Source: Bacillus sp. FSL K6-3431
GTDB taxonomy: Bacteria > Bacillota > Bacilli > Bacillales > Bacillaceae_C
DNA: 64,000 bases
Assembly: GCF_038002605.1 (NCBI RefSeq)
Contig: NZ_JBBOCT010000001.1
Span: 5,270,001 to 5,334,000 of the forward strand
Direction: 5' to 3'
Made by a program: the position numbers and the translations under genes. Shown here piece by piece: positions 196-59,300 of the stretch. Numbering within the stretch: the first letter of the stretch is position 1; the number at the start of each line of letters is the position of its first letter. Under the pieces are notes generated by a model. The model saw only the letters and a program-made list of their open reading frames with translations. It was not told the DNA's origin and made no database searches.

Positions 196-345
196 CTCCA
201 ACGTTTTTCTTATATCTAGCTCCAACGCCCTGCAAACTTGAGGACTTTTCCTACGATAAGTCACATTGGTGTTGCCACGGAACGTCGCGATTTTAACCGA
301 TGAACATTTTGTTTGTACGTGCTTAACGGACGCTGCGCTTTTATT
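196..345. repeat. Intergenic repeat (GCCACG / GTTTGTACGT family)
   Basis: This GC-richer block contains TAGCTCCAACG twice, then GCCACGGAACGTCGC and GTTTGTACGTGCTTAACGG ending in GCGCTTTT. The GTTTGTACGT...CTTAACGG part recurs at about 59148 and a shorter relative lies at 3480-3525. It looks like a dispersed non-coding Bacillaceae repeat placed just before the secDF ribosome binding site. Confidence 0.55.
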
Positions 346-11414: not shown

Positions 11415-11698
11415 ATATATAAATGAAAATGATATGTAGCTTTTGATGGAGAGAGTAATTGGGACTTGAAATAAAAAGAGATGAAATGCCTTGGCTGAAA
11501 GCATTTCTACCAACTCAATGAAAGACACTCCGTAGGCTTCCCCTTCGAACAGTACATGCTTAGTAGAGGACGGACGAGTACAGGCGTTAACTGTTTAAGT
11601 GGAAGCTGGCGGATTTCAGCTTCAAAAAGGGTGGCACCGCGGGAAAAAACTCTCGTCCCTTGTTTTTCGGAACAAGGGATGGAGGGTTTTTTTATTTT
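11415..11698 (+). promoter_or_regulatory. T-box riboswitch controlling hisS-aspS
   Basis: The leader has a Stem I region (AGAGAGTAATTGGG ... CTTGGCTGAAAGC), the T-box sequence AGGGTGGCACCGCGGG at 11628-11643, and a terminator hairpin (TCGTCCCTTG with CAAGGGATGGAG, then a T-run) ending at 11698. Uncharged tRNA would stabilise the antiterminator. The specifier region reads GACAC (11524-11528), which contains both the Asp codon GAC and the His codon CAC, matching the two synthetases downstream. Confidence 0.93.
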
Positions 11699-15022: not shown

Positions 15023-15036
15023 TTATTCAAGAAGAG

Positions 15037-15225
15037 AAGTCCTGATGTGTTCGTTTTAGTACCTATTAGTTTTGACCGACAAGTTTTTAAATTAGGGAGT
15101 CTGGAGTTTCCGGACTGAGTGCATGCCTCCTTGAGAGGACGCGTGAGGCCTGGAGCAGGGCACCCACCTGCCGAGAGCGGGTTCAAAACAAAGGATGTAA
15201 AGGACGGCACGATTGGGACTTTTCG
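15037..15225 (+). ncRNA. ssrS: 6S RNA (6S-1/BsrA type)
   Basis: 6S RNA binds housekeeping RNA polymerase holoenzyme as a promoter mimic. The 5' end AAGTCCTGATGTG pairs with GGGACTT at the 3' end to form the closing stem. Inside are hallmark 6S-1 segments such as CTCCTTGAGAGGA, GCAGGGCACCCACCTGC, GGGTTCAAAACAAAGG and AAAGGACGGCACG. B. subtilis 6S-1 lies in the same place, between aspS and yrvM. Mature ends are approximate. Confidence 0.93.
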
Positions 15226-26702: not shown

Positions 26703-26755
26703 CATTGACAAGAGTACATTTCATTTCTATAATTTTCATATACATTTATATTTAA

Positions 26756-26970
26756 GTGCGTGTTCAAATAGGAGGATAAAAAGGGCCAAGAAGTTCTAGG
26801 AAGCGAAGCCTTCAAGTACCGGAGTGCTTGCTCAGGATGTGCTGGCTTCTGTGTTGCTCACAGGACGTGAGCGATCTTATCAGAAGATCCATTCCCATAC
26901 GTGAGGAGCGGAGAAGCAAGCTGACAATGAAATTCGACAGCCATTTTTACCAAACTTTTTGAACATCGTC
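26756..26970 (-). mobile_element. MITE-like element, copy 1 (215 bp)
   Basis: The ends GTGCGTGTTCAAA and TTTGAACATCGTC form imperfect terminal inverted repeats. A perfect 5-bp direct repeat TTTAA flanks the element (26751-26755 and 26971-26975). The core hairpin GCTCAC-AGGAC-GTGAGC (26856-26872) and the flanking CTTCTGTGTT are shared in reverse complement with the copies at 55193 and 58546. There is no transposase frame. Confidence 0.82.
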
Positions 26971-26995
26971 TTTAATGAAAAATTGAGGACGGATC

Positions 26996-27001
26996 TATAA
27001 T
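26996..27001 (+). promoter_or_regulatory. -10 element of the alaS leader
   Basis: A perfect TATAAT stands just before the T-box leader. The -35 region (about 26972-26978, TTAATGA) is weak and overlaps the duplication made by the upstream MITE-like element. Confidence 0.55.
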
Positions 27002-27007
27002 GTTAAC

Positions 27008-27232
27008 ACCCATCTGAGCAAATTATTTTGCGGAAGAGAGGAATTTCCAAGGCTGAAAGGAATTCTAGATGAAGGATAACATTCGCTAATCCTGAGAGCA
27101 GCTAATCCCTGCCGTTCACCGCGTTAAGGTACTGAGGTAAAAGAGGCATATTCTTTGCTCTTTTAAAATCAGGGTGGTACCGCGATCAAAAAGCTTCGCC
27201 CCTGTCCAGGGATGGAGCTTTTTTTGTTTTTT
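27008..27232 (+). promoter_or_regulatory. T-box riboswitch controlling alaS
   Basis: Stem I (GAAGAGAGGAATTTCCAAGG, GCTGAAAGGAATTC) leads to the specifier GCT (Ala) followed by A at 27085-27088. The T-box sequence AGGGTGGTACCGCG lies at 27171-27184 and the terminator (AAAGCTTCGCCCCTG with CAGGGATGGAGCTTT, then a T-run) ends near 27230. Uncharged tRNA-Ala should allow readthrough into alaS. Confidence 0.94.
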
Positions 27233-27255: not shown

Positions 27256-29889
27256 ATGAAGAATTTAACTGGTGCGCAAATTAGGCAAATGTATGTAGAC
27301 TTTTTTACAGAAAAAGGACATCAGGTGGAACCAAGCGCTTCCCTCGTTCCCCATGATGATCCGACGCTTTTATGGATTAACAGTGGAGTGGCAACATTAA
27401 AGAAATATTTTGATGGGCGCGAGATCCCGGAAAATCCTAGAATTGTAAACGCGCAAAAGTCGATTAGAACAAATGATATAGAAAATGTAGGAAAAACCGC
27501 TAGACATCATACCTTTTTTGAAATGCTCGGTAACTTTTCCATTGGTGACTATTTTAAAGAAGAAGCGATTGAATGGGCATGGGAATTTTTAACGAGCCCG
27601 AAATGGATTGGATTTGAACAAGAAAAGCTATCTGTTACGATTCACCCTGAAGATGATGAAGCATTTGATCTATGGAATAAAAAGATCGGATTGCCTGAAG
27701 AACGTATCATCCGGTTGGAAGAAAACTTTTGGGATATTGGTGAGGGACCAAGTGGCCCTAATACAGAAATTTTTTATGACCGCGGACCTGATTATGGAAA
27801 TGATCCAGAAGATCCTGAACTATTCCCAGGTGGAGAAAATGAACGCTATTTGGAAATTTGGAATCTTGTATTTTCCCAATTCAACCATAATCCAGATGGA
27901 ACATACACGCCACTACCAAAGAAAAACATTGATACAGGTATGGGACTGGAACGTATGGCCTCTGTTATCCAAAATGTTCCGACGAACTTCGATACGGATT
28001 TGTTTATCCCAATCATAAAAGAAACAGAAAATATTTCTGGTCGTTCATATGGATCCAATAATGAAACAGATACAGCCTTTAAAGTAGTGGCAGATCATAT
28101 TCGAACTGTAACTTTTGCTATTGCGGATGGAGCGCTACCTTCAAATGAAGGAAGAGGTTATGTATTAAGGAGGTTGTTACGCCGCGCTGTTCGTTATGCA
28201 AAAAAGATCAACATTAACAGACCTTTCATGTATGAACTCGTTTCTGTTGTTGGAGAAGTGATGAAGGACTATTATCCTAATGTTGTTGAAAAAACGGAGT
28301 TTGTCCAACAGGTGATTAAAAATGAAGAAGAACGTTTTCATGAAACGTTGAATGAAGGCCTAGCGATCCTATCTGCTGTTATTCGCAACGCAAAAGCAGA
28401 AGGTAAAAAAATGATTCCGGGTGCAGAAGTCTTTAAATTATATGACACATATGGATTCCCAGTAGAATTAACAGAAGAATATGCAGAAGATGAACATATG
28501 CAAGTCGATCATGCTGGCTTTGAAGTGGCAATGACTGAACAGCGTGAACGAGCTCGTTCTGCACGTCAAGATTCAGGATCGATGCAAGTGCAAGGTGGAA
28601 TTCTGGGAGAAGTGAAAGCTGCAAGTGAATTTATCGGCTATAATCAATTGTCAGCTGAGACTGTCGTCAATACAATTATTAAAAATGACGAATTAGTCAA
28701 TGAGGCATATGTAGGAGAAAAAGTAGAATTTATTCTGGATGAAACACCTTTCTATGCGGAAAGCGGTGGACAGATCGCTGATAAAGGAATACTTATAGCT
28801 GAGGGATTACTCATTAAAGTGGAAGAAGTGCAAAAAGCACCGAATGGACAAAATCTTCATTCAGCAATCGTCGAACAAGGTGTGTTTAAATCTGGCATGC
28901 AGGTAATAGCTAAAGTAGATGAGCAAAATCGCGGTAAAGTAGTGAAAAACCATACGGCAACTCATTTACTACACCAAGCATTAAAAGATGTCCTTGGCAC
29001 ACATGTGAATCAAGCAGGTTCTCTTGTTGGACCCGAACGTCTTCGGTTTGACTTTTCTCACTTTGGCCAAGTGAAACCAGAAGAATTAAAACGAATTGAA
29101 ACGATTGTTAATGAGAAAATATGGGCTAATATGACAGTTGATACATCAAATAAAAATATCGAGGAAGCAAAAGCGATGGGTGCTATGGCACTATTCGGCG
29201 AAAAATATGGTAATATCGTTAGGGTTGTTGCTATTGATGGTTATAGTTTAGAATTATGCGGTGGCTGTCATGTCACAAATACTTCTGCAATTGGTTTATT
29301 TAAAATAGTTTCTGAAGCAGGAATTGGTGCGGGAACACGTAGAATTGAAGCTGTGACGGGTGAAGCAGCTTACGAACTAATGAATGGAGAAATTGAAAGA
29401 ATCCAAGTAATTTCCGGTCTTTTAAAAACAAAGCCTAAAGATGTTGTTAATCGTACCGAAATGCTCCTTAACGAGCTAAAAGAACTCCAACGCGAAAAAG
29501 AATCACTTACAGCCAAATTGGCAAATATTGAAGCAGGTAGTATGCTTGATCACATCCAAGAAGTGGAAGGTATAAAAGTGGTTGTTCATCAAGTGCAAGC
29601 AGCTGATATGAACACACTTCGTAATATGGCAGATGATTTAAAACAAAAATTAGGATCAGGTATTATCGTATTAGCTTCAGGACAGAACGGTAAAGTAAAT
29701 ATTATTGCTGCTGTCACGAAAGATCTGATTGAAAAAGGTTACCATGCTGGAAAACTAGTGAAAGAAGTAGCAACTAGATGCGGTGGTGGTGGCGGTGGAC
29801 GCCCGGATATGGCTCAAGCAGGTGGAAAAGATCCAAGTAAAATAGAAGAAGCACTTGCATTTGTTGCAGATTGGGTGAAAACCGTTTGA
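27256..29889 (+). CDS. alaS: Alanyl-tRNA synthetase
   Basis: AlaS charges tRNA-Ala and edits Ser and Gly mischarging. The 877-residue protein has the N-terminal class II core ([24 protein letters not shown], the first residues of motif 1), the editing-domain zinc/active-site motif HTATH near 567-571 and CGGCH near 669-673, and a C-terminal oligomerisation domain ending in [17 protein letters not shown]. The length equals B. subtilis AlaS. GGAGGTAAT precedes the ATG, and expression is set by the T-box just upstream. Confidence 0.98.
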
Positions 29890-42323: not shown

Positions 42324-42601
42324 TCATCAAATATTGATATAATACAGGGAAGAACCTACTTTATAATGCTGTGATGTATGGCTAGTTAAAAAAACATTAT
42401 ATTCATTTCAAGGAAAATTAGTATTTCCGGAACAAAGAAGTTGGCCATTAGTTATCGATGGAGAGGAAACGGAAAAATTAATATAGCCAACTGACCATAA
42501 TCATGTTATATTTATATAGCGATGAGCTGATTTGCATAAGTCGACTGACATGCTTAAATGCACACATGCTGTGAACATGTGGTCTTTCGCCGCAAACGCA
42601 T
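42324..42601. other. Gap after the 44-residue peptide, with a coding-like remnant
   Basis: The stretch contains a frame open from 42367 to a TAG at 42486 without any start codon (see findings) and a lone GATATAAT near 42336. Otherwise nothing is recognised before the terminator at 42602. Confidence 0.35.
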
Positions 42602-42631
42602 AAGACGCCTGCATTTATGCAGGCGTCTTTT
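42602..42631. terminator. Bidirectional terminator between the sigK unit and pssA
   Basis: AAGACGCCTGCA pairs perfectly with TGCAGGCGTCTT around TTTA, followed by T residues; it lies between convergent units. Confidence 0.9.
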
Positions 42632-54918: not shown

Positions 54919-55192
54919 AATTACCCCTCCTATATCCACTATAGTATAGACGAATGTAGTAGAAAAATCCACTGTTCAATTACCACTGCTGACAAGAGTT
55001 AACAGCCATATTTTTGGCTTGAAAGGCTAAGCTAAGATCAGCAAGAAAAATTGGTTCTTGATTACCGCTTCCGACTAAGTATCCTAGGCCTTAATCCGAA
55101 GCGTTCATCATAGATTGGAGGACATCCATCACATCTGTGAAGTTTGTCCTCTTTACCCCTTGTCAAAAGAAGCAAATTTCCATACGATAGTA
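54919..55192. other. Intergenic region upstream of the second MITE-like copy
   Basis: No gene is visible. A hairpin with arms GAGGACA (about 55112) and TGTCCTC (about 55150) encloses about 25 nt and is followed by TTTACC; it may be a weak terminator or another repeat remnant. Confidence 0.4.
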
Positions 55193-55416
55193 GGGGATGT
55201 TCAAAAAGTCACCAAATGATAAATGGCGAATTTCTTCGTTGGCTTGTCTTTTCGGTCCTCATGTAAAAAGGATCCTCTGTTAAAGAAGAGAGGAACCTCT
55301 GTTAAGATCGCTCACGTCCTGTGCAAGTACGTCCTGTGAGCAACACAGAGGTCAGCACAAGCCCTACGCCGCCTCGAACTTCTTGTTTTTAATTTGGCTC
55401 CTTTTTGAATATGCAC
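55193..55416 (+). mobile_element. MITE-like element, copy 2 (224 bp)
   Basis: The element starts GGGGATGTTCAAAAAG and ends CTTTTTGAATATGCAC, giving imperfect inverted ends. The 5-bp TAGTA stands on both sides (55188-55192 and 55417-55421). The interior has CTCTGTTAA repeats and the core GATCGCTCACGTCCTGTG, with a partial internal duplication, and no coding frame. Confidence 0.85.
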
Positions 55417-55455
55417 TAGTAGGAAGAATGCTTTAGAAGAGGGGACACTAATTTT

Positions 55456-58540: not shown

Positions 58541-58617
58541 TATAAGAGGATGTTCAAAAAGTCACCAAATGATAAACAGCAAATTTCTTCGTTGGCAATT
58601 AGGTACTTTTACTAAAG

Positions 58618-58716
58618 TAAGGAATCTCTGTTAAGGGAGAGAAAAGGATCCTCTGTTAAGGAATGAGAGGAGGATCCTCTCTCTGTTAAGGAAGAGAAAA
58701 GGATCCTCTGTTAAGA
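58618..58716 (+). repeat. Tandem CTCTGTTAAG repeats inside MITE-like copy 3
   Basis: Four variants of a unit of roughly 20-30 bp (TCTCTGTTAAGG plus AAGAGAAAAGGATC) follow one another. Confidence 0.75.
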
Positions 58717-58724
58717 TCGCTCAC

Positions 58725-58893
58725 GTCCTGTGAGCAACACAGAGGTCAGCACATCGTGTGCAAGTACGTCCTGTGAGCAACACAGAGGTCAGCACATCGT
58801 GTGCAAGTACGTCCTGTGAGCAACACAGAGGTCAGCATGTCGTGTGCAAGTACTTTCTATGGGCAGCGTAGAGTCAGCGCATCCTGTGCAAGT
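58725..58893 (+). repeat. 43-bp tandem repeat array, about 3.9 units
   Basis: Units begin at 58725, 58768, 58811 and 58854 with GTCCTGTGAGCAACACAGAG. Units 1 and 2 are identical, unit 3 differs at two bases, and unit 4 is diverged. Confidence 0.9.
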
Positions 58894-59083
58894 CTGTTCC
58901 TCAAAACCTTCTCGTCTCGAAATTTTTGTTTCTAATTTGGCGCTTTTTTGAACACGCACTATAATACATAATCTTACTGACTTTTAAAAAATTATATGAT
59001 GAAAAGAGATGAAGCGTATTCTATCAGATGCGCTTTTTGTTGTGGTTACATTGTCACCTGTAAATACACATGGAGCGTCGACT

Positions 59084-59300
59084 AAAACCGCCACGTCCTG
59101 TGGCAACGTTGACGAATCGGCATCCTGTGGGAGCAGTTTGTACGTCACTTAACGGGCGCTTCCACATTTCTATATGTCTAGTTGCAGGCGCTAATGAATC
59201 GAGGTCATAAGTCAATCCGTCAAGCAGGTAAAGATCAACCTTCTCACTGTCTTGTCTTATGCTTGTCGCCCCTAAACGAGCGCCTTCCGCATTTCTATAT
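59084..59300. repeat. Composite intergenic repeat before lepA
   Basis: The first part has the palindrome GCCACGTCCTGTGGC and GTTTGTACGTCACTTAACGG, also seen at 196-345. The second part runs from TCTAGTTGCAGGCGCT to GAGCGCCTTCCGCATTTC. The string CGCTTCCACATTTCTATAT at about 59159 recurs as CGCCTTCCGCATTTCTATAT at about 59281, so two units seem joined. Confidence 0.65.

Follow-up and report, generated by a model that had tools for sequence, protein, structure and literature searches.

A family of MITEs with 5-bp target duplications in Bacillus sp. FSL K6-3431, its probable IS1182/IS5-like partner and its Bacillaceae-1 RNA hairpins

The window, a 64,000-nucleotide stretch of the genome of Bacillus sp. 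FSL K6-3431, contains three short elements that share their end sequences. A preliminary description of this DNA had placed each of them inside a different perfect 5-bp repeat, and direct reading confirmed this. Its borders were also right, although the ranges given included the 5-bp repeats and the elements proper are shorter. The features of the three copies and of the alaS leader are as follows.

26705..26733, + strand: promoter-like site TTGACA-17-TATAAT upstream of copy 1 (12/12, consensus match only)
26751..26755, no strand: target duplication TTTAA, left copy (copy 1), direct reading
26756..26970, - strand: 215-bp MITE copy 1 with type II ends, within the alaS 5' leader, end-based delimitation
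26829..26896, - strand: Bacillaceae-1 RNA motif (RF01690) in copy 1, 51.6 bits (gathering score 35)
26971..26975, no strand: target duplication TTTAA, right copy (copy 1), direct reading
26977..27206, + strand: alaS T-box leader, immediately following copy 1 on the downstream side, 48.2 bits, E 1.9e-9, under the gathering score of 93
27256-29889: alaS (TIGR00344)
55188..55192, no strand: target duplication TAGTA, left copy (copy 2), direct reading
55193..55416, + strand: 224-bp MITE copy 2 with type I ends, lying upstream of holA, end-based delimitation
55417..55421, no strand: target duplication TAGTA, right copy (copy 2), direct reading
58541..58545, no strand: target duplication TATAA, left copy (copy 3), direct reading
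58546..58959, + strand: 414-bp MITE copy 3 with type I ends, end-based delimitation, RNA fold z-score -4.13
58695..58762, + strand: Bacillaceae-1 RNA motif (RF01690) in copy 3, 66.7 bits
58723..58893, + strand: tandem array of four 43-bp hairpin units in copy 3 (Tandem Repeats Finder, 4.0 copies, 89% matches)
58960..58964, no strand: target duplication TATAA, right copy (copy 3), direct reading

The ends of the elements are imperfect inverted repeats with 13 of the 16 outer positions in common. Positions 2, 4 and 5 differ, and the outer five bases read GAGGA on the left and GTGCG on the right; both versions recur in several species. The outer end design, GnGnnTGTTCAAAAAG, is also that of the coding elements described below, and the outer 16 bp are the part common to the different element types. 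Copy 1 begins 23 bases past the end of the promoter consensus and stops shortly before the T-box of alaS, so that it is probably transcribed. Another type II member of the family lies in the alaS leader of genome G011 (L171), there between the T-box and alaS. The window also holds matches to a second T-box leader (11434-11663), 6S RNA (15036-15223) and BsrF RNA (42519-42627).

We then delimited the family across the 5.5-Mb host genome, which we assign to Lederbergia by inference; the nearest named relative of the HolA encoded in the window is that of Lederbergia lenta (88%). The left-end pattern (27 bases, up to 3 mismatches) gave 74 matches against none for the reversed control, and the right-end pattern (15 bases, up to 2 mismatches) gave 102 against 21. 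The surroundings of all 74 left-end matches and 100 of the 102 right-end matches were used, and ends were paired by end similarity alone, leaving the 5-bp repeats out of the pairing. The 103 raw rows were reduced to 80 elements free of overlaps and duplicates, 61-422 bp long and without a transposase gene. The family is non-autonomous, as had been proposed. By their ends, 65 elements are type I (inner ...GTCACCAAATGATAA), 10 are type II and 5 are unclear.

The 5-bp flanks were identical in 49 of the 80 elements, differed at one position in 15 and at two or more in 16, while shuffled partners gave an expectation of 6.8 identical pairs and the next five bases outward were identical in none of the 80. 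The duplications are thus general across the family, as predicted. We attribute the missing perfect duplication in the other 31 elements to decay or misplaced ends, and count it against our own explanation. The 49 perfect duplications are of 11 kinds and all fit the target pattern TWNWA suggested from the three window copies; the pattern held less well for the insertion sequences treated below, whose duplications fit it in five of eight cases. Among 24 relatives, the exact end pattern occurred in 16, and the reversed control gave a single match in each of 3. In a list selected for duplications, the elements of relatives that are bracketed by perfect ones range in length between 43 bp (L057) and 335 bp (L053). 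The shortest such elements, L057:463-505 and the 45-bp L064, consist of barely more than two ends and still have perfect 5-bp duplications. Searches of plasmid and phage collections with copy 3, and of plasmids with a query made of the two MITE ends, returned no match.

Insertion sites in relatives were compared for all three copies. The copy 2 site in the window reads CCATACGA-TAGTA-[element]-TAGTA-GGAAGAATGC, and the same place in L. lenta reads CCATACGA-TATAG-AAAGAATGC and has no element. This is a near-exact empty site, not letter-perfect and from a single relative. Copy 1 is absent from the uninterrupted alaS leaders of three relatives, G004, G008 and G015. Nine relatives were compared at this position, of which three had a readable promoter and T-box and four (G011 among them) did not. 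Counted on the sequence, the distance from the TATAAT box to the TTGA that opens the leader is 29 bases in the window after subtraction of the element and one TTTAA, and 28, 28 and 25 bases in G004, G015 and G008; in G008 the 5-bp target is not recognisable. The expectation that relatives would have empty sites was thus borne out for copies 1 and 2. Two apparent matches to the copy 1 site (L175, L178) proved to be false, lying inside coding sequence, and were dropped. Around copy 3 the intergenic sequence of L. lenta is too diverged to reveal an empty site.

The preliminary description had suggested looking for an insertion sequence with the same ends. One that shares the end design and also makes 5-bp duplications was found outside the genus. 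At least nine complete coding elements with MITE-like ends were recovered: four in G094 and four in G198, both genomes of the order, and one on a plasmid of Alicyclobacillus fastidiosus (1636 bp). A coding element in G094 measures 1631 bp and has the ends GAGCGTGTTCAAAAAG and GAGTCTGTTCAAAAAG. Flanks were readable for eight of the nine, and all eight had a 5-bp duplication (GTTTA, TAATA, TATAA and TTATA in G094; TAGAA, TTTAA and TGTAA in G198; TTTAT in Alicyclobacillus). Since every G198 copy contains a 10-N assembly gap (L283, L288, L291, L293), the two halves of each of the three G198 duplications lie on either side of a scaffold join; leaving them aside, the count is five of five. The one G198 copy tested, L288, has a 138-bp internal duplicate, and the apparent length of 1780 bp in this genome probably reflects misassembly of an element of ~1.63 kb. 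Beyond 16 bp the ends of the insertion sequences and the MITEs are not clearly alike. The whole Alicyclobacillus transposase had matches at E<=1e-20 in at least 5 of 397 genomes of the order, with the best four candidates per genome scored (4 of 93 in G094). Partial matches were seen in G097, G297 and G061; in G097 a pair of ends surrounds the partial gene, with no duplication.

The partner transposases are 58-89% identical to one another. The Alicyclobacillus enzyme, the only one scanned against Pfam, contains PF05598 (DUF772) and PF01609 (DDE_Tnp_1), and for the three transposases IS1182 (NF033551) was the best NCBIfam model. Their scores of 107, 88 and 94 bits stay below the cut-off of 270, compared with 434 bits for an IS1182 copy of the host genome and 449 bits for one in G002. 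The partner transposase is a divergent IS1182/IS5-like enzyme, and the ~1.63-kb elements of G094, G198 and the Alicyclobacillus plasmid are probable autonomous partners of the MITE.

Within the genus the enzyme was met as a relic. A 637-bp element in G003, found in the PF01609 search, has the MITE-like ends GAGGTTGTTCAAAAAG and GAGGGTGTTCAAAAAG and retains a 63-aa open piece that matches the A. fastidiosus transposase at 55%; this piece alone gave no Pfam or NCBIfam match. The relic is 80% identical to the G094 element over its first 252 bp, with further matching stretches, and its flanks, TATAA and TACTA, are unequal. We interpret it as a decayed copy with internal deletions, as would be expected on the way to a MITE. 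Across 34 genomes of the family the 63-aa piece had a strong match in G003 only and weak partial matches in G024 and G172. The host genome gave no match to the 63-aa piece and, among the best 4 of 6 candidates, none at E<=1e-20 to the whole Alicyclobacillus transposase. The PF05598 and PF01609 transposases of the genus (30 of 49 and 30 of 82 matched loci) included no intact element with MITE ends. This search covers these two transposase types; an element of another family (IS3, IS256, Tn3 or others) could have similar ends. Left and right ends that lie 6-7 kb from each other in G001 and G006, considered as long elements, turned out to be separate short elements around housekeeping genes. In the genomes searched, partner and MITE were not found together in working form.

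The inner part of the elements is variable. The core hairpin of the window copies, GCTCAC-GTCCT-GTGAGC, is part of the Rfam family RF01690, 'Bacillaceae-1 RNA', a candidate RNA of 2010 that Rfam lists as an sRNA gene. RF01690 reached its gathering score in copies 1 and 3 and in many further elements; copy 2 did not reach the 35 bits. The hairpin had been presented as a feature of the family. It is present, but in 41 of the 80 elements (one to six matches to the hairpin pattern) and not in all; 39 have no match, and elements of 154 bp have none. At 40 loci picked for holding elements, RF01690 hits at the gathering score fell inside delimited elements in 27 of 28 cases (13 of 13 in a set of 20 loci and 14 of 15 in 20 more). 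Two RF01690 matches of the window lie outside the MITEs, at 59066-59131 (+) and 248-312 (-); a similar stretch occurs, by eye, upstream of lepA in L. lenta, so that one match is probably older.

We also asked what surrounds RF01690 elsewhere. Of 150 genomes of the order, 78 contained the motif, and 17 of these had at least 31 matches. High-scoring copies, 35 of the 40 whose surroundings were retrieved (L210 and L215-L218 left out), were then compared in five genomes chosen for high copy number rather than at random. In 32 of the 35, a stretch of at least 60 bp outside the motif recurs around another copy, which places them in longer interspersed repeats; the three without such shared surroundings (L185, L187, L188) are from the host genome. 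With the motif masked, eight representative carriers had no mutual similarity except in two pairs, one formed by the bcr1-like repeat of the host and that of G097 (L181/L202) and the other by two repeats of G056 (L190/L192). Both pairs hold the motif in opposite orientation within the shared carrier. Besides the MITE, at least four other unrelated repeats carry the motif, in two cases in both orientations. Unrelated carriers and opposite orientations imply repeated acquisition of the motif, or its inversion, and RF01690 appears to be carried as cargo by mobile repeats and not to be an ordinary sRNA gene. A second repeat family of the host (L179-L184, L186), with bcr1-like ATAAA (TTTAT) borders, also carries RF01690; ATAAA stands at both ends in six of the seven copies read.

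The genomic position of the copies was examined by simple ORF calling, for which five of the 80 were dropped at locus edges. Only 4 of 75 lie within an ORF. Fifty-eight copies lie between codirectional genes, 12 between divergent and 5 between convergent ones. Of the 58 codirectional copies, 39 are on the strand of the genes and 19 on the opposite strand, a bias equal in elements with and without hairpins (19:10 vs 20:9), which thus lends no support to a hairpin function.

These data bear on the alternatives. One is that the elements are selected functional RNA genes or leaders of the Bacillaceae-1 type, for example CsrA sponges, with border repeats that are incidental. The RF01690 matches in the elements support this, as does RNA folding better than that of shuffled sequences (z -2.85, besides the value given for copy 3). 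CsrA is present in the host, and a CsrA sponge has been proposed for the reverse complement of RF01690 (PMC4333381). The 39 same-family elements without a hairpin-pattern match speak against such a role. Moreover, RF01690 occurs in three of seven genomes without a CsrA match (2 copies in G058, 10 in G075 and 6 in G076) as against 75 of 143 with one, and it is the RF01690 strand, not its reverse complement, that runs along the genes in the 39 of 58 codirectional copies, with or without hairpins. These sequence comparisons are weak contrary evidence to the published CsrA idea, and we consider the RNA-gene reading quite unlikely. That the elements are site-specific bcr1-type repeats associated with TTTAT, and not made by a transposase, might be suggested by the bcr1-like family of the host; 11 kinds of duplication in place of a fixed TTTAT border, and very different ends, make this highly improbable.

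The closest alternative concerns the enzyme. Canonical IS1182 elements are present in the host genome, one with three similar copies, and their transposase might have moved the MITE. One IS1182 copy of the genus, in G002, has related ends (GGGGCTGTCCAAAAAGTC) with a G-rich start and CAAAAAG. However, the two host IS1182 copies whose borders were read (L229, L239) have the ends GAGGCTGGGACA and no 5-bp duplication, and L239 has inverted flanks (AATA/TATT). The coding elements that do make 5-bp duplications have ends closer to those of the MITE, and movement by a canonical IS1182 enzyme is therefore unlikely. We favour the explanation that the elements are a MITE family going back to an IS1182/IS5-like insertion sequence whose gene was lost and whose middle was replaced by other sequence, and hold this to be probable. 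The ends and the duplications are direct observations, as are the lack of copies 1 and 2 in relatives and the existence elsewhere of coding elements that match in end design and duplication length. Transposition, the origin first put forward for these elements, is supported by the generality of the duplications, the empty sites and the matching insertion sequence.

Under this explanation, a DDE transposase acting in trans would recognise the outer ~16 bp (GnGnnTGTTCAAAAAG, in distinct left and right versions) and insert the element at T-W-N-W-A sites cut with a 5-bp stagger, so that a 5-bp duplication is left on either side. The IS1182/IS5-like enzyme, of which the genus has yielded just a relic, presumably moved the MITE copies. 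The middle of the element would be free to change, holding short filler or one to several 43-bp Bacillaceae-1 hairpin units whose number probably varies by slippage or recombination. The copies, mostly intergenic, are probably transcribed with neighbouring genes, and the hairpins would then act, if at all, as folded RNA. On the simplest view they may be tolerated cargo that keeps the inserted RNA folded. A bolder and more tentative proposal, which we regard as possible but less than even, is that the hairpin is a module captured again and again, in either orientation, by unrelated mobile repeats of the Bacillales since it benefits the carrier; it might, for example, fold the inserted RNA and so preserve an interrupted transcript, or bind a host factor that is widely conserved. 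If true, RF01690 would be a cargo that mobile repeats carry generally, instead of a family of sRNA genes.

The family resembles several known systems in part. It shares with the Bacillaceae-1 RNA its inner hairpins, which here lie inside a transposable repeat, are in tandem in some copies and are missing from about half. The layout, and the layout only, recalls the BOX element of Streptococcus pneumoniae, described as having constant ends around a variable number of tandem middle units (PMC3049150). A MITE of Porphyromonas gingivalis with a minisatellite is likewise reported to hold a tandem repeat, in another host (PMC4596501). The bcr1 repeat, reported to be restricted to the Bacillus cereus group (PMC6542083), is also an abundant short mobile Bacillaceae repeat with a 5-bp A/T-rich border motif, but that motif is TTTAT; the comparison is by border motif, not by end sequence. 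Searches of the open-licence literature, which leaves ISfinder and subscription papers outside, showed no description of the MITE family or of a mobile RF01690 carrier. Passages there on RF01690 or Bacillaceae-1 RNA contain nothing on mobile repeats, and the titles listed for the MITE end sequence were unrelated.

We describe a MITE family, newly propose a partner for it, and note that unrelated repeats have its RNA cargo in common with it. The preliminary description, though supported in its reading, had missed that the hairpin belongs to a known Rfam family, that about half of the copies are without it, and that an IS1182/IS5-like partner is likely. An orphan repeat family is linked in this way to a probable transposase, and RF01690 would be recast from an sRNA gene to a cargo of several mobile repeats. 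The question would accordingly shift from regulation by an sRNA to the effect of the hairpin on the transposon or on the host transcript, for which copy 1, in the T-box leader of alaS, offers a natural test place.
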